Shown: positions 8,386 through 38,562 of the stretch, in pieces
Layout of the letters: each line of letters begins with the position of its first letter
How positions within the stretch are numbered: the stretch's first letter is position 1
NCBI GenBank assembly: GCA_030681525.1
Contig: JAUXSD010000247.1
Coordinates: 1-45,201, forward strand
Source: Solirubrobacteraceae bacterium
GTDB lineage: Bacteria > Actinomycetota > Thermoleophilia > Solirubrobacterales > Solirubrobacteraceae
Direction: 5' to 3'
Length of the DNA stretch: 45,201 nt
Position numbers and translations under genes: made by a program
Notes under the pieces: generated by a model
Database searches by the model: none
The model's input: the letters and a program-made list of their open reading frames with translations, nothing else
What the model was told of the DNA's origin: nothing

Positions 8386-10533
8386 GTGCATCCGAATACC
8401 GGCAGTCCGCGCCCTTGCTCGCTTCAGGGCCAGCTGCGCGCACACTCTTCGCAGTTCGCCTCGGCCGTCCGCGGGTTGCTCGCGTCCCGCCGCCAGCAGC
8501 TTCTGCTGCTGGTGCTGAGCGCCGCCACGGTGCTCGTGCCGGTCGCGCTGGCCGCCGCCGCGACCGTGTGCCCGCGCCCGCTTCCTCCCTGCGAGGACCA
8601 CGTCGCGGTGGCGGGGAGCGTGCGTGCCTACAGCAGCGCCGTGACGAGGCCGAAGTGCGCCCGCAAGGTGCCGACGTGCACGACCAAGAATTCGAAGAAG
8701 CGTACCGGCGCGGTTCGGGGCGTCGCCGGCAAGACGGGCGCAGCCGGTAAGACCGGCGCCAGGGGTAAGACCGGTGCGCAGGGCGGGCGCGGCGATGCGG
8801 GTGGCGCCGGCGCGACCGGAGCCACCGGAGCCACCGGAGCTGGAGCAACGGGTGCCACCGGCGCCACGGGCGCCACGGGCGCAGTGGGCGCCACGGCCGC
8901 GACCGGTGCGGCCGGAGCACAGGGTCTGCAGGGCGTCAGCGGCGCGACCGGCGCTGCCGGGGTCAAGGGCGCGACCGGCGCGACCGGTGCGGCGGGCGAC
9001 GCCGGGCCGACAGGCGCCGCGGGTCAGACCGGTTCGGCCGGCTCGGCCGGCTCGCAAGGTGACACCGGGTTGACCGGCGTCGCCGGGGTGGCTGGCGCGA
9101 AGGGCGAGACGGGCGACACAGGAGCCCCCGGCGAGGCCGGCGCCGCCGGCCCCCAGGGCGACAGCGGTGACGCGGGCGTCGCTGGCGCGGCCGGCGTCAA
9201 GGGCGACGCGGGCGTCGCTGGTGCGGCCGGCGTCACGGGCGACAGCGGTGACACCGGCGCTGCCGGTGCGACCGGCACGACCGGTGACATCGGTGACACC
9301 GGCGCTGCCGGTGCCACCGGAGCGGCGGGTGCTGAGGGCGATGTTGGTGCCACGGGTGCCGCGGGTGCTGAGGGCGATGTTGGTGCCGCGGGTGCTGAGG
9401 GCGATGTTGGTGCCACGGGTGCCGCCGGTGCCAAGGGCGACGTAGGTGACACCGGCGCCGTCGGGGCGACAGGTGCCGAGGGCGACACCGGGCTGACCGG
9501 TACGACCGGCGCCACCGGGGCCACGGGTGACGCGGGTGCCGCCGGTTCGACCGGCGCGACCGGACTCACGGGTGACAGCGGTGCCACGGGCACTGCCGGT
9601 GCCACGGGTGCCGCGGGCGCCAAGGGCGACATTGGTGAGACCGGCGCTGCGGGGGCCACGGGTGCCGAGGGCGGTGTTGGTGACACCGGCGCGGTCGGTG
9701 CCACGGGTGCCGTGGGCGACATCGGCGACACCGGCGCCGCGGGCGCCAAGGGCGAGATCGGCGACACCGGCGCGGTCGGTGCGACGGGCGCCGAGGGCGA
9801 CACCGGGCTGACCGGTACCACCGGCGCCGCCGGCGCCGCCGGTGACGTGGGCGCGACCGGTGCTGCCGGTGACGTGGGCGCGACCGGTGCTGCCGGCACC
9901 ACCGGCGATACCGGGCTGACCGGTCTGACGGGCGCGACCGGCGCCGCGGGCGAGGACGGCGCCGCCGGCTCGGACGGAGCAGCCGGACCCATGGGGCCCG
10001 CCGGGCCGACCGGTTCCAGCGGCCCGACCGGGTCCACCGGCGCCACCGGGTCCCGGGGCGAGACCGGAACGACCGGGGCCACGGGAGACACCGGCGCCGC
10101 CGGAGCAGACGGTGCCGGCGGAGCCGCCGAGTACGCCTACATCTACAACGACTCGGCCCAGACGGTGGCCATCGAGGCGGACGTCACCTTCAACAAGAAC
10201 GGGCCCATGACACCGGGCATCACGCATGCACCGGGCGCCGAGGCAATCGCGTTTACGACGGCCGGCACGTACAAGATCTCCTATTCGGTGTCGGGTGTCG
10301 AACCCAACCAGTTCGCGCTGTTTCGCAACGGCGCGCTGGTGGACGGTTCGGTCTACGGCTCCGGGGCCGGAACGCAGCAGAACAGCGGCCAGGTCATCTT
10401 CACCATCGGTGTCAACGACGTGGTCACGCTGAAGAACCACTCATCCGCCGCGGCGGTCGGGCTGCAGACGCTCGCCGGCGGCACACAGACCAACGCAAAT
10501 GCGTCACTCGCGATCGAAAGGCTCGGGCTATGA
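8386..10533 (+). CDS. Collagen-like surface protein with BclA-type C-terminal domain
   Basis: 715 residues from GTG 8386, with GAGG at 8375-8378. A hydrophobic segment at residues 38-59 exports or anchors the chain. A short Cys-containing stem (Cys62, 69, 91, 98) precedes about 157 Gly-X-Y triplets (residues ~108-580), dominated by GAT, GAA, GDT and GDV with very little Pro and one small interruption near 148-152. The last 135 residues match the trimerising, TNF/C1q-like BclA C-terminal domain, including the [15 protein letters not shown] and [13 protein letters not shown] segments. In Bacillus such proteins form glycosylated surface filaments, the Thr in the triplets carrying sugars. Here it should form a trimeric surface stalk. 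Its stop overlaps the next start (ATGA). Confidence 0.9.
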
Positions 10534-11661: not shown

Positions 11662-13741
<2,080 letters not shown>

Positions 13742-13743
<2 letters not shown>

Positions 13744-13781
13744 ACGTTTTCGGGCGTGCGCCGGCTCTCCCGAGAACATTC
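13742..13781 (+). promoter_or_regulatory. 13-bp imperfect inverted repeat after the ABC-F gene
   Basis: GAACGTTTTCGGG (13742-13754) pairs with CCCGAGAACATTC (13769-13781) with one mismatch and one G-T pair, around a 14-base loop. It is notably A/T-richer than its surroundings. It may be a terminator, or an operator with AACGTT/GAACAT arms ahead of the membrane protein gene. Confidence 0.4.
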
Positions 13782-13817
13782 TCCCCAGCGACGCACCACC
13801 ATCTGGTAGAAGAGCGC

Positions 13818-14681
13818 ATGGCGCCCGAACGGGATGACCGCGTCTTCAAGCAGACCCGCGTGCTCGCGGCCTTCATCGTCCCGTTCCTGCTCGTCGCGTT
13901 CGTGCTGCTGTACTTCTTCCCCGGCTCCACGAAGGACTACTTCGCCTGGGAGATCCACCCCGACATCACGCCGCTGATCATGGGCGCGGGCTACATCGCG
14001 GGCGCCTACTTCTTCGCCCGCGTGTACATGGAGCGGCGCTTTCACCGCGTCCACGTCGGCTTCCTGCCGGTCACGGCGTTCACGATCTTCATGGCGATCG
14101 CATCGTTCGGGCACCTCGATCGCTTCATCCAGGAGAACGTCGCGTTCTGGATCTGGATGGGCCTCTACGTCACGACGCCGATCCTCGTGCCCCTGGCCTG
14201 GTGGGCCAACCGCAAGACCGACCCCGGCACACCCGAGCCGGGCGAGACGCGGTTGCCGCCCGGGGTCCGCAACCTGCTGATCGGCGCCGGCACCTTCCAG
14301 CTGCTCGTCGCGCTGTTCCTGCTGTTCTCGCCGTCGACGATGATCGACGCCTGGCCGTGGACGCTGACGCCGCTGACCGCGCAGACGCTCGGCGGATGGT
14401 TCGCGCTGCCGGGGATCACCGGGATCATGATGGGCCTCGACGGCCGCCCGAGCGCGATCCGGATCACCCTGCAGAGCCAGGCCATCGGCCTGGCGCTCAT
14501 CCTCCTCGCGGCCGCGCGCGACTGGGGCAGCTTCGACACCGACAACGCCCTGACGTACGTGTTCGTGTTCGGCCTCGGCGGGCTGCTCGCCGGGCTGCTC
14601 GCGCTCGAGCTGTACATGCGGCGGCTGTTGCCGGGATCGCCGGCCGCGTCGCCGCCGCCGGCCACGCCGGCCTCGCCGTAG
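13818..14681 (+). CDS. Polytopic membrane protein, unknown function
   Basis: 287 residues from ATG 13818 (AAGAG five bases upstream); a GTG at 13740 overlapping the previous stop would add 26 residues without hydrophobic character and is less likely. About seven to eight transmembrane segments are visible, two loops with charged or aromatic residues (STKDYFAWEIHPDITPLI near residue 40 and GHLDRFIQENVAFWIW near 100), and a Pro/Ala-rich C-terminal tail. No transporter or enzyme motif recognised. It follows the ABC-F gene but the inverted repeat between them argues for separate control. Confidence 0.7.
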   Translation: MAPERDDRVFKQTRVLAAFIVPFLLVAFVLLYFFPGSTKDYFAWEIHPDITPLIMGAGYIAGAYFFARVYMERRFHRVHVGFLPVTAFTIFMAIASFGHLDRFIQENVAFWIWMGLYVTTPILVPLAWWANRKTDPGTPEPGETRLPPGVRNLLIGAGTFQLLVALFLLFSPSTMIDAWPWTLTPLTAQTLGGWFALPGITGIMMGLDGRPSAIRITLQSQAIGLALILLAAARDWGSFDTDNALTYVFVFGLGGLLAGLLALELYMRRLLPGSPAASPPPATPASP

Positions 14682-14714
14682 CGTCGCCAGCGTCTTGCTT
14701 CGCAGAATCGGCGG

Positions 14715-14790
14715 CTTGCGCAAGAATCAGACGGCTTCTTGCGTCAGACGCAAGCAATCGTTGCACAGGCGCAAGCCAAGCCCCTTGGCG
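14715..14790 (+). promoter_or_regulatory. Cluster of CTTGC/GCAAG palindromes, probable Lrp operator array
   Basis: Four inverted repeats lie between the membrane protein gene and the arginine fusion gene: CTTGCGCAAG (14715-14724), CTTGCGTC-A-GACGCAAG (14738-14754), TTGC-N6-GCAA (14761-14774) and GCCAAG-CCC-CTTGGC (14776-14790). Centres of the first three are about 26 and 21 bases apart, i.e. roughly helical-turn multiples, as expected for a multimeric Lrp/AsnC protein that wraps DNA. The regulator gene lies at the end of the same operon. Confidence 0.6.
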
Positions 14791-14819
14791 TCGCGCGCCG
14801 CGCGTGCCACCGTGTAGTC

Positions 14820-16922
14820 ATGCCCGCAGAACTCACGTGGGGCCGGCGCCTGCTCATGTGCCCGCCCGCGCACTTCGACGTCTCGTACGCGATCAACCCG
14901 TGGATGGACCTCGCCGTCCCGGTCGATCGCGCGCGCGCCCAGCACCAGTGGGACGCGCTCGTCCAGACGCTCACCGAGGCCGGCGCGCAGGTCGAGGTCC
15001 TCGCCCCGCAGGCCGGCCTGCCCGACCTTGTCTTCACCGCCAACCTCGGCCTCGTCGACGGCGACACGTTCATCCCCGCGCGCATGCGCCACCCCGAGCG
15101 GCGCGCGGAGCCCGCCCTCGCCGAGCGCTGGTTCGCCCAGCACGGCTACGCCATCCGCCCCCTCGGCGACGACGTCGTGCAGGAGGGCGCCGGCGACGCG
15201 CTGCCCTTCGAGGGCACGCTGATCGGCGCCTACCGCACGCGTTCCTCGGCCTCCTCGTACGTCGACCTCGCGCGGATCGTCGACGCCCCGATCCTGCCGG
15301 TCGAGCTCGCCGACGATCGCTTCTACCACCTCGATATCGCGTTCTGCCCGCTCGACTCGCGCAGCGCGCTCGTCGCGTTCGACAAGTTCGACGAGGACAG
15401 CCGGCGGCTGCTGACCGCGCTTGTGCCCGACCCGATCGCGCTCACCCCCGAGGAGGTCGAGGCGTTCAGCGCCAACGCCGTCGTCGTCGGTCGCACGATC
15501 GTCATGGCGTCGTGCTCCCCGCGCCTGGCGGCGGAGCTGCGCACCCGCGGCTTCGATCCGGTCGTCGTCGACGTCTCGGAGTTCCTCAAGGCGGGCGGCG
15601 GGCCGCGCTGCCTGACGCTGGCCCTCGACGTGCGGCTCGCGGCGCAGGACACCGGCGCGCTGGCCGACCGCTACACGGCGCACAACTACCACCCGCTGGC
15701 CGTCACGATCACGCACGCCGAGGGCGTCTGGGTGCACGACGACCGCGGCCGGCGCCACCTCGACGCGCTGTCGGGCTACAGCGCGCTGAACTTCGGCCAC
15801 CGCCACCCGCGCCTCGTCGCCGCCGCGCACGAGCAGCTCGACCGCGTGACGCTGACGAGCCGCGCGTTCGCCAACGACCAGCTCGGGCCGTGGGCGCGCG
15901 ACCTCGCCGCGCTGACCGGCAAGGACCGGGTCCTGCCGATGAACACCGGGGCAGAGGCCGTCGAGACGGCGATCAAGACCGTGCGCAAGTGGGGCCACGA
16001 GGTCAAGGGCGTCGCGCCGGACCGCGGGACGATCATCGTCTGCGAGGGCAACTTCCACGGCCGCACGACGACGATCGTCTCCTTCTCCGACGACCCGCTC
16101 GCGCGCGCCGGCTTCGGCCCGTTCACGCCCGGCTTCGTCCGCGTGCCGTTCGGTGACGAGGCCGCGCTGGAGCACGCGCTGCGCGCACACGACGACGTCA
16201 TCGGCTTCCTCGTCGAGCCGATCCAGGGCGAGGCCGGCGTGGTCATCCCGCCCGACGGCTACCTGCCGGCGGCGCGGCGGCTGTGCAGCGAGCACGGCGT
16301 GCTGCTCGTCGCCGACGAGGTCCAGTCGGGGATGGGCCGCACGGGACGGACGCTGGCCTGTGAGCACGAGGGCGTCGTGCCCGACCTCTACGTGCTCGGC
16401 AAGGCGCTCGGCGGCGGCATCGTCGCGCTGTCGGCGATCGCGGGCGACGACGACGTGCTCGACGTCTTCACGCCTGGATGCCACGGCTCGACGTTCGGCG
16501 GCAACCCGCTCGCGTGCGCGGTCGGCCGCGCGGTGCTCGAGTTGCTGGCCACCGGCGAGCCGCAGGCCAACGCGGCGCGCATCGGCGCGCGCCTGCGCGC
16601 GGGACTGCAGGACGCGGCGCCGCCGGCGCTGGCCGCCATCCGCTCGCGCGGGCTGTGGTTCGGGCTCGACGTCCACGAGAGCCACGGCAGCGCCCGCGCG
16701 ATCTGCGAGCGGCTGCTGGAGGTCGGCGTGCTGGCCAAGGACACGCACGAGCAGACCGTCCGGCTCGCGCCGCCGCTGACGATCACCGCCGCCGAGGCCG
16801 ACTGGCTGCTCGAGCGCCTGCTCGGGGTGCTCGCCGATGCGCATGCCGACGCCGAGGCGGCGCACGCCGACCTGCGTTTCGCCGACACTGCAGTCGTTCC
16901 CACCCCGCCGCTCGCCGCATAG
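14820..16922 (+). CDS. Bifunctional fusion: arginine dihydrolase-like domain + ornithine aminotransferase
   Basis: 700 residues from ATG 14820. Residues 1-280 are a guanidino-modifying-enzyme domain: FTANLG at 72-77, Glu122/Asp126 in QEGAGDA, His170 in YHLDIAF and the nucleophile Cys264 in GGGPRCL. The FTAN motif is that of arginine dihydrolases (arginine to ornithine, CO2 and ammonia) rather than DDAH. Residues ~285-675 are a class III aminotransferase like RocD: GFHG-type phosphate loop, DEVQSG at 499-504 and the PLP lysine Lys528 in VLGKALGGG. Together they could take arginine to glutamate-5-semialdehyde. In M. tuberculosis the same parts are separate neighbours (Rv2323c, rocD1/rocD2) beside an AsnC-type gene; here they are one chain. 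Dihydrolase versus dimethylargininase activity is inferred, not shown. Confidence 0.88.
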   Translation: MPAELTWGRRLLMCPPAHFDVSYAINPWMDLAVPVDRARAQHQWDALVQTLTEAGAQVEVLAPQAGLPDLVFTANLGLVDGDTFIPARMRHPERRAEPALAERWFAQHGYAIRPLGDDVVQEGAGDALPFEGTLIGAYRTRSSASSYVDLARIVDAPILPVELADDRFYHLDIAFCPLDSRSALVAFDKFDEDSRRLLTALVPDPIALTPEEVEAFSANAVVVGRTIVMASCSPRLAAELRTRGFDPVVVDVSEFLKAGGGPRCLTLALDVRLAAQDTGALADRYTAHNYHPLAVTITHAEGVWVHDDRGRRHLDALSGYSALNFGHRHPRLVAAAHEQLDRVTLTSRAFANDQLGPWARDLAALTGKDRVLPMNTGAEAVETAIKTVRKWGHEVKGVAPDRGTIIVCEGNFHGRTTTIVSFSDDPLARAGFGPFTPGFVRVPFGDEAALEHALRAHDDVIGFLVEPIQGEAGVVIPPDGYLPAARRLCSEHGVLLVADEVQSGMGRTGRTLACEHEGVVPDLYVLGKALGGGIVALSAIAGDDDVLDVFTPGCHGSTFGGNPLACAVGRAVLELLATGEPQANAARIGARLRAGLQDAAPPALAAIRSRGLWFGLDVHESHGSARAICERLLEVGVLAKDTHEQTVRLAPPLTITAAEADWLLERLLGVLADAHADAEAAHADLRFADTAVVPTPPLAA

Positions 16923-17365
16923 CCGACCTCGACGACATCGACCGCCGCATCATCGCCGAGCTGCTACAGGACGGCAGGCGCAGCCTGGCCGAGCTGGGCG
17001 AGCGCGTGAACCTCTCCTCGCCGGCGGTCAAGCGGCGCGTCGACCGCCTGCGCGAACGCGGTGTCATCACCGGCTTCACGGCGCTCGTCGATCCCGCGGC
17101 GCTCGGCCAGCGCACCGAGGCGTTCGTCGAGATCTTCTGCGCCGCGAACATGAGCGCGATCGCGCTGCGCGAGACGCTGGCCGGCGAGCCGGAGATCGTC
17201 GGCGCCTACACCGTCACCGGCGACGCCGACGCGCTGATCCAGGTGCGCGCGACCGACGTCGAGCACCTCGAGGCGGCGATCGAGCGGATCCGGACGAACG
17301 AGGGCATCGCGCGCACGAAGACGATCATCGTGCTCAGCCGCCTGATCTCCCGCGGCGATCCCTAG
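16919..17365 (+). CDS. Lrp/AsnC-family regulator with apparent ATA start
   Basis: About 148 residues. The N-terminal helix-turn-helix (LDDIDRRIIAELLQDGRRS, then LSSPAVKRRVDRL) and the C-terminal RAM ligand-binding domain (from about residue 65, with the GAYTVTGDADALIQV strand) are complete and typical. No ATG, GTG or TTG exists in this frame in the needed place. The only sensible first codon is ATA at 16919, which overlaps the fusion gene's TAG (ATAG) just as ATGA overlaps do elsewhere in this window. Initiation at AUA by translational coupling, or a base error, are the options. Position and family imply arginine- or ornithine-dependent control of the upstream fusion gene. Confidence 0.8.
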   Translation: MADLDDIDRRIIAELLQDGRRSLAELGERVNLSSPAVKRRVDRLRERGVITGFTALVDPAALGQRTEAFVEIFCAANMSAIALRETLAGEPEIVGAYTVTGDADALIQVRATDVEHLEAAIERIRTNEGIARTKTIIVLSRLISRGDP

Positions 17366-17440
17366 CCCTGGACGCCGGGCCGCGGCGCAACAACGTCCGT
17401 CCGCCGGGGTTCACGTACAACGTCCCCCGGGCACAGCACA

Positions 17441-17842
17441 ATGATCGTAGTGAGCGTGCAGCTACACCAGTCGATGGACGCCGTCCCCGCCGCGGTGCCC
17501 GCGCTGCGCGGCGCGATCGCGGGATTTCTCGGTGAGGCGGGCGTGGGGGAGCCGGTCCTGACCTCGGCCAAGCTCGCCGTCTCGGAAGCGGTCACCAATG
17601 CGGTCATGCACGCCTACGTCGACGCGCCGCGGCCCGGCGCGGTCAGCGTCGATGCCCGGCTCGACGGCGACAGCCTGCTCGTCGAGGTCTCCGACGACGG
17701 CAGCGGCATGACGCCGCGGCTCGACAGCCCCGGCCTGGGCGTCGGGCTGCCGCTCATCGCCGGCAGCGCCGACACGCTGGACATCGACAACTCGCCGCGC
17801 GGGGGCACCGTGCTGCGGATGTCGTTTCTGCTCAGGCACTGA
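17441..17842 (+). CDS. HATPase anti-sigma factor / serine kinase (RsbW/SpoIIAB-like)
   Basis: 133 residues, one GHKL ATPase domain. N box EAVTNAVMHAY with Glu49 and Asn53, G1 box DDGSGM at 85-90 and G2 box GLGVGLPLI at 98-106 are intact, so ATP binding is expected. Proteins of this size and type phosphorylate an anti-anti-sigma (STAS) partner and sequester an alternative sigma factor. Neither a STAS protein nor a SigB-type sigma gene is next to it; the sigma gene in this window at 38.6 kb is of the primary-like group. ATG 17441 is taken as start. The gene follows the Lrp gene by 75 bases and is probably a separate unit. Confidence 0.85.
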   Translation: MIVVSVQLHQSMDAVPAAVPALRGAIAGFLGEAGVGEPVLTSAKLAVSEAVTNAVMHAYVDAPRPGAVSVDARLDGDSLLVEVSDDGSGMTPRLDSPGLGVGLPLIAGSADTLDIDNSPRGGTVLRMSFLLRH

Positions 17843-17876
17843 GCGCGCATCGGTCAACGGCCGCCGCCGAACCCGG

Positions 17877-17882
17877 TAGGTT
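17877..17882 (+). promoter_or_regulatory. -10 box TAGGTT, eight bases before ATG
   Basis: TANNNT hexamer just ahead of the LVIVD protein start, with no ribosome binding site between them. Suggests a leaderless message. Confidence 0.35.
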
Positions 17883-17890
17883 GCCGCGGC

Positions 17891-20041
17891 ATGCGCCGCC
17901 GTCTCGCCCTGCTCTCGTGCCTCGCGTCGCTCGCCGCGGCGGCCGGTGCGATCGGCGTGTCGGCCGCGGGCGCGCACCCCGGCGAGGCGCATACGCCCGG
18001 CGCGCTCGGCGGACACGGCCTGTTCGGCGGCCTCGCCGGCGGTGCACAGGCCGATGCCGCCGCGGCCGTCTCGCGCTTCGCCACCCCGCGCCAGGCGCCG
18101 ACGCCGGCCGGCCCCTGCACCGACGAGGCCGCGAAGGCGATGCCGGTCGGCGAGGGCCACAACCACTCCGATATCAAGCAGCACGAGTTCGCCTGCCGGA
18201 TGGAGCAGGTGGCGTTCGCGTCGCTCACGGCGCAGCTCAAGGACCGCCCGAACGTGATCCTCGGCGAGATGGACGTCAAGGCCGACATCGCCGCGGTGGC
18301 GATCACCTACCCGCAGGGCGGCGTGCTGTTCTTCGACGTCTCCGACCCGGCGAAGCCGATCTTCCTCTCGCGGTACAACGCCACGGAGTGCGACCAGCTG
18401 CTGGAGGACATCAACTGCGGCGCGTTCGTCGACCTCTCGGCCGACGGCAAGACGGCGTACCTGTCGATCCAGAAGCTCACGATGCTGCCGACGCTGCCGC
18501 TGAACCTCAACGCGCTCAACCAGAGCGGTCCGGGCGTCGACGTCATCGACCTCGCCAACCCGCGCCGGCCGGTGCGCACGATGTTCTATCCCATCCTCGG
18601 GCTCGGCGGGGTGCACACAGTGCGCTCGCACACGATCCCGAAGGGGCCGTCGAGCCGCGACCGGCCGCGGGCCGCCGGCGAGTACGTCATCTCCAACCAG
18701 AACGGCATCGGGATCGACATCGCGAAGGTCACGAAGGTGGCGGGCAAGCGGATCCTCACGACGGTCCGCCAGCTCGGCACGATCAACCTCGCCGCCACGA
18801 TCCAGAACAACGAGGTCCACGACACCTTCATCCAGAACGACCCGCTCGACGGCCGCACGTACCTCTATAACGCGGCCGGCTTCTCGACCGGCTTCAACGT
18901 CTACGACATGACCGATCCGTCGAAGATCAAGCAGGTCGCCGAGTGGGATCCGACGCCGGAGTGCGAGAACGACTGGTACGCGCACACGATCGACGTCACG
19001 CACAAGGACGGCCGCCGCTACGTGACGATGCCCGCCGAGATGCTGCTCATGATCGACCCGCAGTCGCCCAGCGGCCTGTCGGAGATGTCCGACGGCGACA
19101 AGCACCACGGTTGCGGGACGTTCGTCGGAAACGGCGACAAGCCGGGGCCGCTGTGGATCGTCGACGCGACGGACTTCTCGAAGCTCGGCCCGGCCAACGA
19201 CAAGAAGTCGCCCGAGCAGGCGCTGGCGACCGACGCCGCGCTGAAGAAGGCGTCGCTCGACGCGCTCGTCGCGACGTGGACGAACCCGGCCGGCCGCGCC
19301 GGCGGCTCGCTGACGTTCTCGCCGCACAACCAGCAGATCGTCGGCGACAGGATCTACCTGTCGCACTACCACGGCGGCGTCTACGTCCTCGATGCCTCCG
19401 CCGCGTTCGCCGGCAAGCGCGAGCGGCCGAAGGAGGTCGGCTTCATCGTCCCGCACGACGATCGCACCCGGCCGCTGCTCGGCCAGCCGACGCTGACCGG
19501 CCTGCTGGGACGCTTCTTCACCGACTTCCCGCTCGGGCGCCCGGAGGTCTGGGACATGGTCCACTACAAGGGCCACGTCCTGGCGTCGGACATGACCGGC
19601 GGCTTCTACTCGCTGAAGTACGACGACAGCCCGCTGCCGCTGTGCGCGGACCGCAAGCGCCCGGCGACGGTCTTGCACCGCAAGCGCTCGGCGATCAGCA
19701 CGAGGCGGATCGTCGTGCGCGGCACCGCCAGCGACCGTGGCTGCAAGGCCGACGCCAAGACCCGCGAGCGCGCAGGCGCGCTGCGCCGCGTCAGCGTGGC
19801 GGTCGCGCTGAAGTCCGGCACGCGCTGTCGCTATCTGAGCAAGACCGGCCGGCTGCGCGCGGCGCGCAGCTGCACGAAGCCGCTGTTCGTGACCGCGCGG
19901 GGCAAGAAGACGTGGCGCCTGGAGCTCAAGAATCGCTTCCGGCCGGGCACGTACGCCGTGAGCGTTCGCGCAACCGACTCGGCGGGTAACCGCGGGCCGA
20001 CGAAGACGGCGACGCTGCGCCTGCGCGCAGCAAACCGTTAG
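17891..20041 (+). CDS. Secreted LVIVD-repeat protein
   Basis: 716 residues. Residues 1-28 form a signal peptide ending near Ala-Gly-Ala-His. The body (residues ~115-580) has LVIVD-type repeats, each with a strand followed by a DP/NP turn: FFDVSDPAKP, VIDLANPRRP, VYDMTDPSKI and VLDASAAF, consistent with a beta-propeller. Several Cys, His and Asp residues are spread through loops (GHNHSDIKQHEFAC, HKDGRRY, SDGDKHHGCG), possibly for metal or disulfide. After a basic linker with paired Cys, the last ~100 residues look like an Ig/cadherin-like strand module (SVRATDSAGNRG). Such proteins are common and uncharacterised in actinobacteria, and located outside the membrane. It starts 48 bases after the anti-sigma gene. 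Confidence 0.75.
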   Translation: MRRRLALLSCLASLAAAAGAIGVSAAGAHPGEAHTPGALGGHGLFGGLAGGAQADAAAAVSRFATPRQAPTPAGPCTDEAAKAMPVGEGHNHSDIKQHEFACRMEQVAFASLTAQLKDRPNVILGEMDVKADIAAVAITYPQGGVLFFDVSDPAKPIFLSRYNATECDQLLEDINCGAFVDLSADGKTAYLSIQKLTMLPTLPLNLNALNQSGPGVDVIDLANPRRPVRTMFYPILGLGGVHTVRSHTIPKGPSSRDRPRAAGEYVISNQNGIGIDIAKVTKVAGKRILTTVRQLGTINLAATIQNNEVHDTFIQNDPLDGRTYLYNAAGFSTGFNVYDMTDPSKIKQVAEWDPTPECENDWYAHTIDVTHKDGRRYVTMPAEMLLMIDPQSPSGLSEMSDGDKHHGCGTFVGNGDKPGPLWIVDATDFSKLGPANDKKSPEQALATDAALKKASLDALVATWTNPAGRAGGSLTFSPHNQQIVGDRIYLSHYHGGVYVLDASAAFAGKRERPKEVGFIVPHDDRTRPLLGQPTLTGLLGRFFTDFPLGRPEVWDMVHYKGHVLASDMTGGFYSLKYDDSPLPLCADRKRPATVLHRKRSAISTRRIVVRGTASDRGCKADAKTRERAGALRRVSVAVALKSGTRCRYLSKTGRLRAARSCTKPLFVTARGKKTWRLELKNRFRPGTYAVSVRATDSAGNRGPTKTATLRLRAANR

Positions 20042-20090
20042 CAGAACCGCAACAACACACCGCGTTTCATCGCCTAGCTTTTCATCTTCG

Positions 20091-21855
20091 ATGCGCTTCG
20101 AGCGGACGCCGGGGCCTCACCCAGCGCCGTCCCGGCGACATCGGCTGGCGCTCACGCTGACGATCTTCGCCTTCGCCTGCGCCTTCGTCGTGCAGTCGCC
20201 CGGCTGGGCCCAGACGTCGTACATGGCGCTCTCCAAGGCCCTGTCGAGCGGAACCCCGCAAATCGACCGCTGGCACTGGGAGACGCACGACGACGCCTAC
20301 ACGAACGGCCACTACTACTCGGTCAAGCCGCCCGGCCTCGTGCTCGCGACGCTGCCGCTGTACCGCGCGCTCGACGCGGCGGGAGCCGAGCGCCTGGCCG
20401 CCGAGGCGCGCATCCGCGCGGAGTCCGGCGGTGGCGCGCCATGGGCGGCGCGGACGCTGCCCGTCGCGCAGTACGGCTACAGCAAGGCGCGCGCGATCGA
20501 GGCTCGCCGGGCGATCGCCGACGACGCGCCGATGACCTGGGCGCTGGGCCTGCTCGGCGTCGTCGTGCCGGCCGTGCTGCTGCTCCTGCTCGTCGCGCGC
20601 GTGGCGGAGCGCGTCGCGCCGGGGACGGGCGTCGCGACGGCGATCGCGCTCGGGACCGCAACGCTCGTGCTGCCGTTCTCGACGCTGTACTTCTCGCACA
20701 TCCTCAGCGCGCTGCTGGGCTTCGGCGTTCGCGCTCGTCTGGCGCGAGCGCGAGCGTGTGCGGTGGCGTGCCGGGTACCTCGCGCTGGCCGGGCTGCTCG
20801 CCGGCCTGGCCGTCGTCTGCGAGTACCCGCTGGCGATCACCGCCGGCATCGTCGGGCTCTATGCGCTCATGCCCCGCGCGCCCGGGCTCGTGCGCCGCGC
20901 GCTGGCCTACGGCGGCGGGCTCGCCGCCGGCGTCGCGCCGCTGCTGGCCTACCAGTGGTGGGCGTTCGGCTCGCCGCTGCACCTCGCCTACGACAACGCG
21001 ATCGCCACGCCGGGGCGCAGCGGCCACGCCGCGATCGGCCTCAACGAGAGCGGCTTCTTCGGCATCACGGTGCCGCGCCCGGAGGCGGCGCTCGAGCTGC
21101 TGTTCAGCGGGCGCGGCCTGCTGACGCTCGCGCCGGTGCTCGTGCTGGCGGTCGCCGGAGTGGTGGCGCTGCGCCGCGACGGCCGCCATCGCGCCGAGGC
21201 GACCGTGATCGCCGCGATCGCGCTCGCGCACTTCGTCTACAACGCCGGCTACTGGCTGCCGCTCGGCGGTGGCTCGCCCGGGCCGCGCTTCCTCATCCCG
21301 ATCCTGCCGTTCCTCGCGCTCGGGCTGGCGGTCGCGTGGCGGCGCTGGCCCGCGGTGACGCTCGCGCTGACCGCGATCTCCGCGACGACGATGGTGATCG
21401 CGACGATGACCCACCCGATGATCGGGGTCAACGACCCCGGCGTCTGGATCGACCGCATGCTCGAGGAGCGCGTCTTCCAGCACAGCGTCCTCGACCTGGC
21501 GGGCGTCGCGCACGGGCTCGTCGCGATCGCGCCCTTCGCGATCGCGATCGCGATCGCGCTGGCCCTCGGCGTGAGCTCGCTGGGCCGCGCCGAGCTGGCC
21601 CGCGGCGCGCGCTGGGCGCCGGCCGCGGTCGTGGCGTGGGCGCTGGCGGCGACGCTGCTGCCGCGCCGGGGGGCGCTGCCGTCCGACGGGGCGCTGACGC
21701 TCATCGCGGTGGCCGGCCTGGTCGCGCTGCTCGCGGTGGCGCTCGTCGCGCTGCCGCTGCGGCGCAGCCGCCCCGCGGTCTCAGCGCAGGACGAAGAGCA
21801 CGACCGCCCCGCGCCGCGTGCGCTCGAGGTCCAGGCCTCGCAGCGGGCGAGTTGA
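20091..21855 (+). pseudogene. GT-C-like membrane protein interrupted by a +1 frameshift
   Basis: The N-terminal part (from ATG 20091) and the C-terminal part (frame +1) are clearly one protein. The first frame reads a loop with GHYYSVKPPGLVLATLPLY and membrane helices up to HILSALLGF, then turns into Arg-rich nonsense. The other frame continues sensibly as FALVWRERERVRWRAGYLA from about 20728 to the stop at 21855. One extra G in the run at 20721-20727 explains it. The KPPG loop and about eleven helices suggest an integral-membrane glycosyltransferase of the GT-C/GT39 type using a polyprenyl-phosphate sugar. It is either a pseudogene or a sequence error. The last 75 bases overlap the convergent gene's end. 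Confidence 0.75.
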
Positions 21856-23448
21856 CGCGTCGCGCAGCGGGCTGCCCGGCGGCGTGCGCGCGAGGTGGAC
21901 CGTCACGCTGCGCACGCCGAGGCGCCGCAGGTGGGCGACCGAGCGGGCGTCGGGGAAGCTGCGCGTGGCCCGGATCGTCGCCTCGAAGCCGCGCGGCATG
22001 AAGCTGCCGCGCCCGTTGACGATGTCCGGGAAGCCGTCGGTCGACCACAGCACGTAGCGGCGGTTGTCGGGGGCCTCGGCGGGCAGGTGCAGCGCCGGCT
22101 GCGGGGCGGCGCGCTGGCCGGGCGGCGCGAGCGGCACGGTCGGATGCTGCGCCAGGCCCCAGCCCTCGGCGAGGATCGCCGCGCTCGCCAGCGCGACCGC
22201 CGCCGCGGCGGCGCGGGCCCCCCAACGCCCCCGAGCCCGGGCGACGAGCGCCTGGGCGCCGGCGGCGGCGAGCAGCGCGAGGCACAGCGTCGTCAGCGTG
22301 TGCAGGCGGCCGGGCACGCGGATCCCCTGCCAGCCGGGCAGGAACTCGTAGAGCCAGCGGTAGGGGTACAGCCACGAGGCGCCGTTGAGCTGAAAGCCCA
22401 GCGAGAGGACGGCGAAGGCGAGCACACCGACCGCCAGCGCGCGGCGCAGGCGCCGCGGCAGCCCCTCGCCGAGCCGCCATCCGGCGATCGCGAGCACGAG
22501 GATCGCGAGGCCGGGGAACAGGGTCATCTCCGGGACCGCCCCGAGCCCGTCGCGCAGCGGCGCGGTCGCGTCGCCCCACACGCGGCTCGAGCGGGCGGCG
22601 GCCAGGAACTCGTAGGGCGGCCCGGAGAAGGCGGCGACGTCGTCGATCGTGCGCTCCGCCTCGGGATGGTGGTCGAGGATGCGCAGGTAGGGCCGGGCGA
22701 GCAGGGCGGCGGCGAGCGCGAGGCAGGCCATCCCCGCTGCGGTCGCCGCGACCACGGGCCGCGGCGGCCGCGGGCGCCCGCGCCGCCACCACAGCACCGC
22801 GCCCGCGAGCGTTCCGGCGGCGGCCAGATAGGCCACCATCAGGCCGAGCGTGAAGCCGAGCGAGAACTGCCACGTCGCGACGAGCCAGCCGGCGAGGATC
22901 GTCCCGGGGCGGCCGTGCCGGTAGCCGCGCACGAGCAGAAACAGCGCCAGCGGGATGCCGCCGCTGGAGATCACGTGCATGTGGCCCTCCTGCTCCAGGC
23001 GCCATGGCGCGTAGGCGAACGCCAGCCCGGCTATCGCTGCGCCGGCGCGGCCCGCGCCGAGCTCGCGCGCGAGCAGCCAGGCGCCGGCGAAGCACAGTGC
23101 ATAGGCGAACAGAAACAGCACGTCGTAGCGGGCGACCGCGGCGCGCGTCCCCTCGCCGATCAATCCGGCGGGGGCGTAGCCGACGAGCGCGTCGGACACC
23201 GCGAGGCTGTCGCGCATCGGCCAGAACGTGTTGGCCTGAAAGAGCTCGGTCGGCTGATGGGCCAGCGCGTGGCCGTCCCACGCGATCTGCCACGCCTGCA
23301 CGAGCGGGTCGCCGAGGTCCTGCGCGATGTCACGACCCATGTGCAGCGGCAGCGGCCAGTGCATCGCGACCGCGAGCACCACCCCGAGCAGCGCCACGCC
23401 GAGCAGCTCCCGTCCCGACAGCCGCGGGCTCGCCGCGCGCTCCGTCAT
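21781..23448 (-). CDS. Polytopic membrane protein, GT-C glycosyltransferase-like
   Basis: 555 residues with about eleven transmembrane segments. The first outside loop carries an acidic pair, DLGDPLVQAWQIAW near residue 45, in the position of the catalytic Asp in GT-C glycosyltransferases. A later loop holds the conserved-looking FLPGWQGIRVPGR, and the C-terminal ~120 residues form a soluble domain with Cys-free mixed strands (ARSVAHLRRLGVRSVTVHL). That plan is common in uncharacterised bacterial membrane proteins that may transfer sugars to cell-surface lipids or proteins. It is convergent with, and overlaps by 75 bases, another GT-C-like gene, and follows the PilZ gene by 56 bases on the same strand. 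Confidence 0.7.
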   Translation of the reverse strand: MTERAASPRLSGRELLGVALLGVVLAVAMHWPLPLHMGRDIAQDLGDPLVQAWQIAWDGHALAHQPTELFQANTFWPMRDSLAVSDALVGYAPAGLIGEGTRAAVARYDVLFLFAYALCFAGAWLLARELGAGRAGAAIAGLAFAYAPWRLEQEGHMHVISSGGIPLALFLLVRGYRHGRPGTILAGWLVATWQFSLGFTLGLMVAYLAAAGTLAGAVLWWRRGRPRPPRPVVAATAAGMACLALAAALLARPYLRILDHHPEAERTIDDVAAFSGPPYEFLAAARSSRVWGDATAPLRDGLGAVPEMTLFPGLAILVLAIAGWRLGEGLPRRLRRALAVGVLAFAVLSLGFQLNGASWLYPYRWLYEFLPGWQGIRVPGRLHTLTTLCLALLAAAGAQALVARARGRWGARAAAAAVALASAAILAEGWGLAQHPTVPLAPPGQRAAPQPALHLPAEAPDNRRYVLWSTDGFPDIVNGRGSFMPRGFEATIRATRSFPDARSVAHLRRLGVRSVTVHLARTPPGSPLRDASTRPLRGLDLERTRRGAVVLFVLR

Positions 23449-28642: not shown

Positions 28643-29488
28643 CTACGGGCGCGTGAACTCCTCGACGGCGGTCGCCTCGAACTGCGAGTTGACAAGCACG
28701 ACGACCTCGGTGCCGTCGGACTCGCGCACGTGCGCGTGGTAGGCCGCGCCGTGGCCGCCCCGCTCGGTGCGCAGCACGGTCCCGCCCGGCACCTTCTCGA
28801 GCGCGGCGGCCTTGACCTTCGCCGCCGTGTCGCCGGTCAGGGCGGACTGAGCGCCGCGCGTGCCACCCGGCCCGCCGTGGTGACCCGGTCCGCCACGGCC
28901 GCCGGCCGGGCGCGTCTGCACCGACGTCGCCTCGAACTGCGAGTTGACGAGGACGACGACCTCGGTGCCGTTGGAGCGGCGCACGTGGGCGTGGTACGAC
29001 GCGCCGTCCGGCCCGCCCCGCTCGCTGCGCAGGACCGTGGCGCCGGGCACCTTCTCGAGCGCGGCGGCCTTGACCTTCGCCGCCGCCGTGCCGGTCAGCG
29101 CCTCGTGGCGCGGGCCGCCGGAGCCGCGGCCGCCGGGGCCACCGCGTCGGCCGGCCGGGCGGGCCTGCGTCGCCGTCGCCTCGAACTGCGCGTCGACGAG
29201 CACGACGACCTCGGTCCCGTCGGACTTGCGCACGTGGGCGTGGTACTTCGTGGCGTACGGCCCGCCCTCCTCGACGCGCAGCACGGTGGCGCCGGGCACC
29301 TTCTCGAGCGCGGCGGCCTTGACCCTGTCGGCGATATCGCCGGTCAGCGCGGTGTCCTGGGCGCGCTGCGCCGACGGGGACGACGACGAGCTGCCGTTCG
29401 TGGCCGCGCCGGCGAGCGCGGCGCCGCCGGCGGCGAACGCCGAGACCGTGGCGATCGCCGTGAGCGTCTTTCTTGAGGGCGTGAGCAT
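28643..29488 (-). CDS. Exported protein with three tandem PepSY-like repeats
   Basis: 281 residues. ATG 29488 is fixed by a perfect AGGAGG nine bases upstream. Residues 1-30 are a signal peptide (ending GAALAGAAT). Three homologous repeats of about 60 residues follow, each with ALTGDxAxKVKAAALEKVPG, then TVLR-E-GG, a YHAHVR strand and TEVVVLVxxQFEAT, separated by Gly/Arg/Pro-rich linkers. This is the PepSY-like alpha-beta unit, which in known proteins inhibits peptidases or binds peptides. The high identity between repeats, at both DNA and protein level, points to recent internal duplication. It is divergent from the MoaD-like gene. Function beyond a periplasmic or wall-associated role is not evident. 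Confidence 0.8.
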   Translation of the reverse strand: MLTPSRKTLTAIATVSAFAAGGAALAGAATNGSSSSSPSAQRAQDTALTGDIADRVKAAALEKVPGATVLRVEEGGPYATKYHAHVRKSDGTEVVVLVDAQFEATATQARPAGRRGGPGGRGSGGPRHEALTGTAAAKVKAAALEKVPGATVLRSERGGPDGASYHAHVRRSNGTEVVVLVNSQFEATSVQTRPAGGRGGPGHHGGPGGTRGAQSALTGDTAAKVKAAALEKVPGGTVLRTERGGHGAAYHAHVRESDGTEVVVLVNSQFEATAVEEFTRP

Positions 29489-35256: not shown

Positions 35257-35334
35257 GTGCTGCTGACGAGCAGCAGGCCGACCGGCCACGTCACCGGCAC
35301 CCCGGACAAGGACGACGACATCGCGCATGGCTGA
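35257..35334 (+). pseudogene. Possible N-terminal fragment of a conserved small protein
   Basis: A frame ending at TGA 35334 contains SSRPTGHVTGTPDKDDDIAHG. As I recall, the RPTGHVTGTPDK segment is the N-terminus of a conserved ~90-residue actinobacterial protein, here cut off after about 25 residues. GAGGAGGTG directly upstream could serve initiation at GTG 35257 or CTG 35263. The stop overlaps the ATG of the next gene (35327), so it might also work as a leader peptide for it. Low certainty. Confidence 0.3.
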
Positions 35335-35545
35335 CGAGGACACGAACAAGCAGGCCCCGCCGCACGACAGCGAGGCGAGCGAGCCGCTGGGGCCGATGAC
35401 CCCCGACGACGAGACGGAGCTCGGCGACACGCCCGAGGCCCACGACGAGATCACGCCGCACGACCTGCCGCTCGATCACCCCGGCCGCGACGAGGCCGAA
35501 CGCCAGGCCGGCAGCGGCGAGGGCACCGTCCGCGGAAACACCTGA
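35327..35545 (+). CDS. Small acidic disordered protein
   Basis: 72 residues from ATG 35327, with 20 Asp/Glu and five His, many Pro and no hydrophobic core. Blocks such as GPMTPDDETELGDTPEAHDEITPHDLPLDHPGRDEAER look like a conserved but disordered actinobacterial protein. It may be a stress or spore-type small protein or bind metals through His/Asp; nothing decides. It overlaps the end of the fragment upstream by eight bases. Confidence 0.55.
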   Translation: MADEDTNKQAPPHDSEASEPLGPMTPDDETELGDTPEAHDEITPHDLPLDHPGRDEAERQAGSGEGTVRGNT

Positions 35546-35597: not shown

Positions 35598-37145
35598 ATG
35601 GACGGCCAGCAGACGCAGCTGCAGCTGCCTGACGGCATCGACGCCGCGGGCGCGGCCGATCGGCTGGCCGCGCACGTCGCGGTCGTCACGCACCGCGCGC
35701 ACCGCGCCGACCGCACGTTCTGGGACACGTTCGACGGCCGCCTGCACGCGGCCGGCCTCGTCCTCGTCGACAACGGCAGCCGCTTCGCGCTGGTCGACGG
35801 CGCCACGTACGCCGAGCAGGCCGCCGCCGACCACGCGCGCGGGCTGCGCCGGCTCGCTGCGGTCGACCTGCCCGCCGGACCGCTGCGCGAGCGCCTGGAG
35901 CCGCTCGTCGAGATGCGCGTCCTCACGCCGGTCGTGCGCGTCCGCAGCCGGCTGCTGCCGATCAACGTGCTCGACGAGCTCGGCAAGGTCGTCGTGCGCC
36001 TGCAGGCCGAGGAGCCGACGGTCGTCGCGGGCGGCGACGCCAAGATCGCATTGCGCCCCCGCCTGAACGTCGTCGGCGTGCGGGGCTACGACACCGAGTA
36101 CGAACGGGTGCTCGCGCGGCTGACCGGCGACCTCGACCTGCAACCGGTCACCGAGCTGCTGCACGACGAGGCCGTCGCGGCGATCGGCGCGACGCCCGGC
36201 GGGACGTCCTCCAAGCTGCGCGTGACCCTGCTGCCCGACACGCGGGCCGACGCCGCCGCCGTGACGATCCTGCGCCGGCTGCTGGAGATCATCGAGGTCA
36301 ACCTGCCCGGCACGCTCGCCGGCCTCGACAGCGAGTACCTGCACGACCTGCGCGTCGCGGTGCGCCGCTCGCGGGCGCTGCAGCGCGAGCTGCGCGGCGT
36401 CTTCGCGCCCGAGCCGCTGCGGGTGTTCCGCGACGGCTTTCGCGAGCTGCAGGTCCTGACCGGGCCGACGCGCGACCTCGACGTCCAGTTGCTGGAGTTC
36501 GCGGACCTCGCCGCGACGCTCCCACCCGACGCCGCGCCGGACGTGGCGCCGCTGCGCGAGCTGCTCGAGCTGCGCCTGGCCGCCGAGCGGGCGAAGATGG
36601 TGCGCGACCTCGAGTCCGAGCGCACGCGCGCGCTGCTCGACAACTGGCGCGTCTTCCTCGACGTGCTCGTCGCCGCGCCGGAGGAGGACCGGCCCGACGC
36701 GGCGCGGCCGGTCGCCGACGTGGCGGGCGAGCGGATCGCCACGGTCTACGGGCGGATGGTGAAGATGGGCCGCGCGATCGAGCCCGACAGCCCGCACGAG
36801 GCGCTGCACGACCTGCGCAAGAAGGGCAAGGAGCTGCGCTACCTGCTCGAGTTCTTCGCCTCGCTGTATCCGCCGGAGGTCGTCAAGCCGATGGTCGCGA
36901 CGCTGAAGGCGCTGCAGGACGTGCTCGGCCGCTTCCAGGATCGCGAGGTGCAGGCCGACGCGCTGCGGGCGCTCGGAGACGAGATCGCGGCGCTGGACGG
37001 CGGGGCCGCGGCGCTCATGGCGATGGGCGTGCTGGTCCAGCGCCTCGGCGAGGAGCAGGCGCAGGCCCGCGAGCAGTTCGCCGAGCGCTTCGCGCAGTTC
37101 GCCGCCAAGCCGCAGCGCAAGCTCGTGACGAAGACCTTCGGGTGA
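35598..37145 (+). CDS. CYTH-like/CHAD-domain protein (polyphosphate binding)
   Basis: 515 residues from ATG 35598. The first ~240 residues are a degenerate CYTH-like region without the ExExK motif, so it is probably not catalytic. The CHAD domain (~250-510) is helical, with the conserved His/Arg/Lys faces LHDLRVAVRRSRAL near residue 250 and LHDLRKKGKELRYLLEFF near 395, which bind polyphosphate in known CHAD proteins (phosins). Its stop overlaps the ParA gene start (GTGA), so the two are made together. It should sit on cytoplasmic polyphosphate granules. Confidence 0.88.
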   Translation: MDGQQTQLQLPDGIDAAGAADRLAAHVAVVTHRAHRADRTFWDTFDGRLHAAGLVLVDNGSRFALVDGATYAEQAAADHARGLRRLAAVDLPAGPLRERLEPLVEMRVLTPVVRVRSRLLPINVLDELGKVVVRLQAEEPTVVAGGDAKIALRPRLNVVGVRGYDTEYERVLARLTGDLDLQPVTELLHDEAVAAIGATPGGTSSKLRVTLLPDTRADAAAVTILRRLLEIIEVNLPGTLAGLDSEYLHDLRVAVRRSRALQRELRGVFAPEPLRVFRDGFRELQVLTGPTRDLDVQLLEFADLAATLPPDAAPDVAPLRELLELRLAAERAKMVRDLESERTRALLDNWRVFLDVLVAAPEEDRPDAARPVADVAGERIATVYGRMVKMGRAIEPDSPHEALHDLRKKGKELRYLLEFFASLYPPEVVKPMVATLKALQDVLGRFQDREVQADALRALGDEIAALDGGAAALMAMGVLVQRLGEEQAQAREQFAERFAQFAAKPQRKLVTKTFG

Positions 37146-37897
37146 CCATGGCCACCACCGTCGCGCTCTACAACATCAAGGGAGGCGTCGGCAAGACCTC
37201 GGCTGCGGTGAACCTCGCGTGGGCCGCCGCCGACGAGGGCGCGCGCGTGCTGCTGTGGGACCTCGACCCGCAGGGCGCGGCCAGCTACCTGCTGCGCATC
37301 CGGCCGAAGGTGCGCGGCGGCGGCGCCAAGCTCGTGCGCGGCAAGAGCGATCCGGCCGCGCTGCTGAAGGGCTCCGACCACCCGCGCCTGGACCTGCTGC
37401 CGGCCGACTTCTCCTACCGCAACCTGGACCTCGCGCTCGACGCGACGAAGCGCCCGACGCAGGGCCTGGCCCGGGTCCTCGCGCCGCTCGCCGGCGACTA
37501 CGACTACGTCTTCCTCGACTGCGCGCCGGCGATCTCGCTGGCCTCCGAGAGCGTCTTCGCCGCGGCCGACGTGCTGCTCGTGCCGCTCATCCCGACGCCG
37601 CTGTCGCTGCGCACCTACGACCAGCTGCGCGGCTTCGTCAGCACCGAGGTGGCCAAGCCGCGGCCGCGGATCCTCGCGTTTCTCTCGATGACCGACGGGC
37701 GCAAGGCCCTGCATCGCAGCGTCGCCGAGGAGCTGGCCGGCGACGCCGGCGTGCTCGCCTCGGCGATCCCGGCGGCGAGCGATGTCGAGCGGATGGGCTT
37801 GCAGCGCCGCGCGCTGGCGCAGTTCGCCCCCCACGGCCGCGCGGCGCGCGCATACGGCGCGCTGTGGACGGAGCTGCGCGGCCGGCTGGCCGACTAG
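37142..37897 (+). CDS. ParA-family ATPase
   Basis: 251 residues from GTG 37142, overlapping the CHAD gene stop; ATG 37148 is an alternative two codons later. The deviant Walker A motif KGGVGKTS at residues 14-21, Walker A' WDLDPQG near 39 and Walker B YVFLDCAP near 122 are complete. The protein has no helix-turn-helix and no ParB gene follows, so it is not an ordinary chromosome-partition ParA; orphan ParA proteins position cargos such as carboxysomes or granules on the nucleoid. Coupling to a CHAD protein suggests the cargo is polyphosphate granules. That is inference. Confidence 0.88.
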   Translation: MTMATTVALYNIKGGVGKTSAAVNLAWAAADEGARVLLWDLDPQGAASYLLRIRPKVRGGGAKLVRGKSDPAALLKGSDHPRLDLLPADFSYRNLDLALDATKRPTQGLARVLAPLAGDYDYVFLDCAPAISLASESVFAAADVLLVPLIPTPLSLRTYDQLRGFVSTEVAKPRPRILAFLSMTDGRKALHRSVAEELAGDAGVLASAIPAASDVERMGLQRRALAQFAPHGRAARAYGALWTELRGRLAD

Positions 37898-38507
37898 GAC
37901 GGCGGCAGCGCCTGCGCGAGCAGCCGCCGGATCGCGGCACGGCCCTGCGCGAACGCCGCCGGGTCGCGGCTGATGCGGTAGCGGTGGTTGGCGGCGGTCA
38001 GCAGCGCGTGCAGCTCGAAGGCGAGCTGGGCGGGATCGGCGCCGTCGGGGAGCGCGTCGCGCAGCGCCCGCTCGAGCGCGCCGATCTGGCGCTCGATGGC
38101 GGTGGCGAGCGCGTCGTGCACCGGTCCCTCGCGGTTGGCGAACTCCATCCCCGCGGTGAGGAAGGGGCAGCCGCCGGGGAAGACCTCGCGCTCGTAGTAG
38201 GAGATCCAACGCTCGAGCAACGGCTCGATGCCGTCGTCGCCCGGTGCGAGGACGTGCTCCTCGAAGATCGTCCAGGCGCAGTCGATCGTCGCGAGCTGGA
38301 GGTCCTGCTTCGATGTGAAGTACGCGTACAGGCCGCTCTTGCTCATCCCCATCGCGCGGCGAGGCGACCGATCGAGACCTGTTCGAGACCATCGATCGAG
38401 GCCAGCTCGCCCGCGCGCCGGAGGATCTGGCCGCGCAGGCGCGGGCCGCGGACGCGCGGCAGCCGCAGCTGGGGCAGAGGCGGGATCTGTGGTTCGCCGA
38501 CCACGCG
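37894..38507 (-). pseudogene. TetR-family regulator split by a frameshift in its DNA-binding domain
   Basis: From GTG 38507 (minus) the frame reads a good TetR N-terminus: GPRLRGQILRRAGELASIDG then EQVSIGRLAA, and stops at TGA just after. The next frame continues exactly as the recognition helix and body of the same protein: MGMSKSGLYAYFTSKQDL, then FPGGCPFLTAGMEF and a TetR C-terminal core, to TAG at 37894. One missing base near 38353-38356 (between GCG and ATGGGG) accounts for it. Restored, it would be ~203 residues of normal length. It is divergent from the sigma factor gene with an operator-like palindrome between. Either a recent pseudogene or a sequence error. Confidence 0.8.
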
Positions 38508-38546
38508 CCCAGCGTATTCCCAGAGGCAACGAAGCGCTAATGATTT

Positions 38547-38562
38547 GCACGAACGGTCGTGC
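38547..38562. promoter_or_regulatory. TetR-type operator GCACGA-ACGG-TCGTGC
   Basis: A perfect inverted repeat 40 bases upstream of the TetR gene start and directly abutting a -10-like TAACGT (38563-38568) of the sigma gene. The ACGA/TCGT core is common in TetR-family operators. It could let the regulator control both itself and the sigma gene. Confidence 0.6.

Follow-up and report, generated by a model that had tools for sequence, protein, structure and literature searches.

What does an orphan ParA-family ATPase do in tight company with a CHAD-domain protein? The question is raised by contig C237 of the 4.56-Mb genome of a Solirubrobacteraceae bacterium, a stretch of 45,201 nucleotides (nt) that makes up our whole window. 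On its forward strand, a 515-amino-acid (aa) open reading frame (ORF; 35598..37145), here termed the TTM-CHAD protein and a putative polyphosphate (polyP)-granule adaptor, is followed by the gene for a 249-aa ParA-type ATPase (37148..37897). We consider it slightly better than an even bet that the two form a ParA-type positioning or partition system with the polyP granule as its cargo, in which the TTM-CHAD protein would be the adaptor and ParA would form a gradient on the nucleoid.

The ParA gene is flanked in the window by the CHAD gene and a TetR-family gene, and no parB adjoins it; the same genome has its own ParA–ParB pair on contig C170, which bears out an earlier note on this DNA in its claim that the pair lacks a neighbouring ParB. 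That note had also called the two genes overlapping. The tight same-strand pairing stands, and the overlap itself depends on where ParA begins: with GTG at 37142 as the start, the reading frame shares the 4 nt GTGA (37142..37145, in gGTGAcc) with the CHAD stop, and with ATG at 37148, which aligns with the ParA starts of close relatives, a 2-nt gap separates the genes. Both versions end at 37897.

The pairing is conserved far beyond this genome. A ParA orthologue is present in 30 of 201 related genomes (at least 57% identity, other ParAs appearing only from 33% down), and in 27 of these 30 a homologous CHAD gene lies directly upstream. Two of the three exceptions, L018 and L039, sit at contig ends, and in the L039 genome the CHAD gene stops 15 nt short of the end of a different contig; in the third, G115, CHAD and ParA are on separate contigs. 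G103 and G109 hold CHADs with a short reading frame and scores of the same class, which align only from the CHAD domain onward; neither genome is among the ParA hits. The nearest relatives by ParA identity are metagenome-assembled genomes (MAGs), an Actinomycetota MAG at 88% and an uncultured Solirubrobacteraceae MAG at 80%. A draw of 396 genomes from the same phylum added 21 further ParAs at E ≤1e-35, 10 of them CHAD-linked, and linkage was found for 9 of the 11 ParA-bearing genomes among 247 from the phylum of a Deferrisomatales locus and for 7 of 9 ParAs in Chloroflexota. A ParA of this type is encoded in 59 of 398 Pseudomonadota genomes, and most of the examined ones lack CHAD linkage. The survey of co-occurrence, which the earlier note had suggested, thus yields 63 distinct ParAs in all that are immediately preceded by a homologous CHAD gene; they come from Actinomycetota, Chloroflexota, Pseudomonadota and the phylum that contains Deferrisomatales. 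The exact 4-nt CHAD/ParA overlap recurs in 24 of 37 measured linked pairs; flanking genes vary between genera, and the CHAD–ParA pair is constant. Distances between CHAD proteins and between their ParAs correlate (r = 0.86, with 0 of 2000 permutations as high), a correlation to which shared descent contributes. Chance neighbourhood of the two genes is ruled out by their pairing across phyla.

The CHAD domain points to the cargo. Residues 224–457 of the ORF (36267..36968) match Pfam CHAD PF05235 (E 2e-53), and the AlphaFold model of the whole protein, with a predicted local distance difference test (pLDDT) score of 93.7, superposes on the Chlorobium tepidum CHAD protein CtCHAD (6qv7) with Z 35.9 and a root-mean-square deviation (rmsd) of 1.9 over 312 residues. 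A CHAD-family profile likewise matches the C. tepidum structure with E 1e-93 over 312 residues, the C-terminal helix included. By the numbering offset taken from the superposition, H249, R252, R256, R292, R414 and Y415 correspond to CtCHAD H253, R256, R260, R296, R418 and Y419, and each of these six polyP-contact residues is invariant in 34 of 34 CHAD homologues. In CtCHAD, mutation of His253, Arg256, Arg260, Arg296 or Arg418/Tyr419 lowers polyP binding (PMC6537752). According to Tumlirsch & Jendrossek (2017), as cited in PMC9239181, CHAD proteins are located on polyP granules in living cells. The protein thus has the CHAD fold and the contact residues of the polyP-binding CHAD proteins (phosins), and the conserved residues argue strongly that it would bind granule polyP.

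The N-terminal half (residues 1–200; 35598..36197) has a different character. It gives no Pfam CYTH match, and its TTM fold is seen only by structure: in the AlphaFold model it matches 2gfg (Z 14.1 over 171 residues), AtTTM3 (Z 13.7) and Vtc4 (Z about 11), in agreement with an earlier description of this region as a degenerate CYTH-like half. The fold is that of CYTH/TTM enzymes, and the ExExK motif of such enzymes occurs in none of the 34 homologues within the first 60 residues, a few of the aligned sequences lacking the extreme N-terminus. Because the motif is absent throughout, this pseudo-enzyme-like half is probably not an active enzyme. Of the TTM domain, the 390-aa CHAD partners in two loci (L094 and L103) retain only the latter half and still adjoin ParA, which argues that the whole TTM barrel is not needed.

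Gene surroundings in other lineages often concern polyP metabolism. The polyP kinase gene PPK1 lies directly before CHAD in three loci (L085, L086 and L143) and was found by local search in a fourth (L099), so that these four have the layout PPK1–CHAD–ParA–CYTH or a related one. Elsewhere, CYTH, NUDIX and SixA-like genes directly follow ParA, with CYTH or SixA in that place in many loci. At least one gene of the PPK1/CYTH/NUDIX/SixA-like set occurs within 5.5 kb of 19 of 35 linked loci versus 3 of 31 related unlinked ParAs (Fisher p = 2e-4), and CYTH alone at 12 of 35 versus 0 of 31 (p = 2e-4), while PPK1 alone (4 of 35 versus 0 of 31) does not differ significantly (p = 0.12); all three p-values are optimistic, since the compared loci are partly related. 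When newly found loci were checked, only 2 had a CYTH or SixA neighbour, and none of the Chloroflexota ones did, so operons with polyP enzymes are common and not universal. In Paracoccus marcusii CP157 the gene order runs pstB-phoU-phoB ... CHAD-ParA-CYTH-NUDIX, the latter four-gene arrangement being common to P. aestuarii and P. liaowanqingii. In favour of the granule reading, the Solirubrobacteraceae genome also has a PPK1 gene, on a separate contig, besides its own ParAB.

Small ribbon-helix-helix/ParG-like ORFs (62–113 aa, below Pfam cut-offs) lie just upstream of CHAD–ParA in Paracoccus and one other locus (L137 3270-3464, L161 3290-3475 and L254 5225-5563); such an ORF could possibly act as an autoregulator or as a partner of ParA.

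The ATPase itself belongs to the ParA/MinD family. It matches Pfam PF13614 (AAA_31; E 1e-28) and has the deviant Walker A motif KGGxGK[T/S], here KGGVGKT, with its signature lysine and the Walker A′/B aspartates; K11, K16, T17, D38, D40 and D124 are invariant in 35 ParA sequences. Its model (pLDDT 84) has the ParA fold, matching 8ray with Z 30.5 and Soj (2bej) with Z 30.4 at rmsd 2.2–2.5 over 233–240 residues. Residues 50–66 (RIRPKVRGGGAKLVRGK; 37295..37345) form a basic segment characteristic of these ParAs.

Taken together, the pair is a good candidate for machinery that places polyP granules and shares them out, because the two genes are adjacent in distant phyla, often with enzymes that make or cleave polyP. 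The CHAD domain would bind the polyP of the granule; by analogy with other ParA systems, ParA would dimerise on ATP and bind the nucleoid, and the granule-bound TTM-CHAD protein would locally release ParA, so that granules would be placed at intervals over the nucleoid and divided between the daughter cells. Speculatively, the dead TTM half might serve to dock ParA or to sense polyP, and the basic segment of ParA might touch TTM-CHAD or polyP directly. What the analysis shows is the gene pairing, the polyP-enzyme context, the conserved residues and the predicted folds; that this very TTM-CHAD protein binds granules, that ParA binds the nucleoid and has its ATPase stimulated, and that granules are moved, we infer. 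The link to polyP granules as cargo is strong by such reasoning. The fuller proposal, of a dedicated and widespread ParA machine that positions and partitions polyP granules through a dead-TTM-CHAD adaptor and a subfamily of ParAs that have a basic segment of their own for binding polyanions, we hold at a little under even confidence.

Several observations weigh against granule positioning. No polyP enzyme gene adjoins the pair in the window; a related clade of Pseudomonadota ParAs has no adjacent CHAD gene; and in Pseudomonas aeruginosa granules are spaced by AlgP rather than by a ParA (PMC9239181). Furthermore, ParA partners usually act through a positively charged, disordered N-terminus (PMC10241942), as in the charged adaptor of McdAB-type systems that contacts the ATPase. 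A basic activator tail of this kind was sought at the N-terminus of the CHAD protein and is absent, the first 20 residues having a net charge of about −1 and being folded in the model, so any contact with ParA must be made otherwise. Most members, not all, are mildly basic over their last 20 residues. The interpretation in the earlier note therefore survives in part: the pair across phyla, the operons with PPK1, CYTH, SixA and NUDIX genes, and the invariant residues strengthen its genomic side, while the idea of an McdB-like stimulator has one finding against it, an N-terminus that is neither basic nor disordered.

Among other explanations, the one that survives best, though we think it unlikely, is that the ParA-like ATPase controls polyP metabolism or its location and, with the TTM-CHAD protein, tethers or tunes PPK1 and CYTH enzymes with no granule moving, on the model of BcsQ in cellulose secretion and FleN in flagellar gene control. 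This fits operons in which the pair is joined by PPK1, CYTH, NUDIX and SixA genes, and BcsQ and FleN, relatives with regulatory roles, are among the fold matches of our ParA. Their scores (Z about 24–25, with McdA at Z 25) nevertheless fall below that of Soj (Z 30), and the closest folds and motifs are those of DNA-segregation ParAs. The pair also occurs without the enzymes in many lineages, so that its constant partner is the granule-binding protein.

It is less probable still that polyP itself is the ligand of ParA, the basic segment binding polyP in competition with nucleoid DNA and the CHAD protein only structuring the granule. The segment is clade-specific, with a mean net charge of +5.5 in 46 CHAD-linked ParAs and −1.8 in 6 outgroup ParAs; it is shared (+4.8) by 12 sister ParAs that have no adjacent CHAD, and the model gives residues 55–67 a pLDDT of less than 50. 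The missing activator tail of the CHAD protein would fit such a scheme too, which leaves unexplained, however, why CHAD is so strictly adjacent to ParA and why the two diverge together.

The linked ParAs probably do not form a single clade, since a careful tree needs 8 changes of the linked label (5 forced); the label is strongly clustered all the same, with 0 of 500 shuffles as low as 8 changes. With Pseudomonadota ParAs added, the deep forks are weakly supported, so CHAD linkage may have arisen once or several times. The Pseudomonadota sisters with the same basic segment and no CHAD next door (L222–L236 and L247–L253, a FastTree group of 22) are fixed in housekeeping surroundings of pseudouridine synthase, RnfH and cysteine synthase genes, and would either rely on a CHAD protein from a different locus or have a different cargo. 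On plasmid pMAQU02 of Marinobacter nauticus VT8 (L139; record 12568-23299), a related ParA of 40% identity without CHAD is separated from phbB by two genes; since phbB takes part in polyhydroxybutyrate synthesis, the cargo there might be a different storage granule. Another orphan ParA, on a Sphingomonas parapaucimobilis plasmid (L141), overlaps aat, the leucyl/phenylalanyl-tRNA-protein transferase gene, by 4 nt.

We find very improbable a signalling unit in which the CHAD protein would work as a CYTH adenylate cyclase or triphosphatase and ParA would lie next to it by coincidence. A ppk-parA-CYTH/CHAD cluster in Acidithiobacillus has been read as cyclic AMP (cAMP)/polyP signalling (PMC6416229), and this speaks for the idea; the uniform lack of ExExK and the adjacency to ParA in several phyla speak against it. 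Scarcely credible, finally, is a remnant or mobile plasmid or chromosome partition locus with a chance CHAD neighbour, since the ParA fold and the weak ParG-like ORF upstream in Paracoccus plasmid copies are outweighed by the separate ParAB in the genome, by the conservation of ParA with CHAD and not with ParB or replication genes, and by the two points that rule out a ParB/plasmid partition locus, namely no adjacent ParB and a clade far from chromosomal ParAs (branch 1.59, support 100/100).

Around the pair, a very acidic 72-aa ORF (35327..35545, + strand), without a Pfam match, lies upstream of the CHAD gene and is tentatively its operon's first gene; a similar ORF holds the same position in two congeneric loci (L096 and L098). 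The TetR-type regulator gene next after ParA is on the minus strand (complement of 37894-38550). Elsewhere, the window contains a long array of 9-nt-multiple repeats with a collagen-like Gly-X-Y pattern (8725-10103) and a tandem repeat with a 249-nt unit in 2.7 copies, 82% alike (28671-29350).

If the pair does position granules, polyP granules would for the first time have a known positioning system that is driven by energy. ParA ATPases would gain a phase-separated polymer as cargo, and the missing ATPase and adaptor for granule placement and inheritance would be named in several phyla. ParA would also be contacted in a manner that differs from the usual one through a basic tail at the N-terminus. 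The genes are specific and quickly testable in tractable bacteria such as Paracoccus, with ParA segment 50–66 as a testable hallmark of the subfamily.

Known systems resemble the pair in part. AlgP of P. aeruginosa also places polyP granules on the nucleoid, and differs in being a histone-H1-like DNA binder with no ATPase (PMC9239181); in a 2025 review of how bacteria position their organelles, the only entries for polyP are DNA-binding proteins (AlgP), with no ATPase among them, and ATP expenditure is described as still to be seen (PMC13052382). The conserved folD-ppk-parA-CHAD group of Acidithiobacillus likewise has adjacent ParA, CHAD and PPK1 genes, in one genus, and was read as a copper- or cAMP-related context with ParA left unexplained and granule positioning not proposed (PMC10892726; PMC6416229). 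The cluster itself was thus sighted earlier in that genus, and the positioning reading is new: we found no paper joining CHAD with McdA in the open-licence literature, though an unseen report is possible. CtCHAD (Q8KE09; 6qv7, 6qva) shares the architecture of an N-half of about 200 residues followed by CHAD and a C-terminal helix, with 34% identity over 312 residues and identical polyP-contact residues. Soj of the ParA–ParB systems is closest in fold and motifs, from which our ParA differs by its lack of a neighbouring ParB, its basic segment and its separate clade. As in McdA–McdB, a ParA-type ATPase gene stands beside that of a presumed body-binding protein with no ParB or parS, the 63 linked pairs conserving an adjacent adaptor gene whose cargo binding we infer from the six invariant residues. 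On the other hand, the cargo differs, this ParA is closer in fold to Soj than to McdA, and the TTM-CHAD adaptor lacks a basic disordered N-terminus and is built from folds unlike McdB. Because of that missing tail and those different adaptor folds, we do not class the pair with McdAB, although it may work in a similar way.
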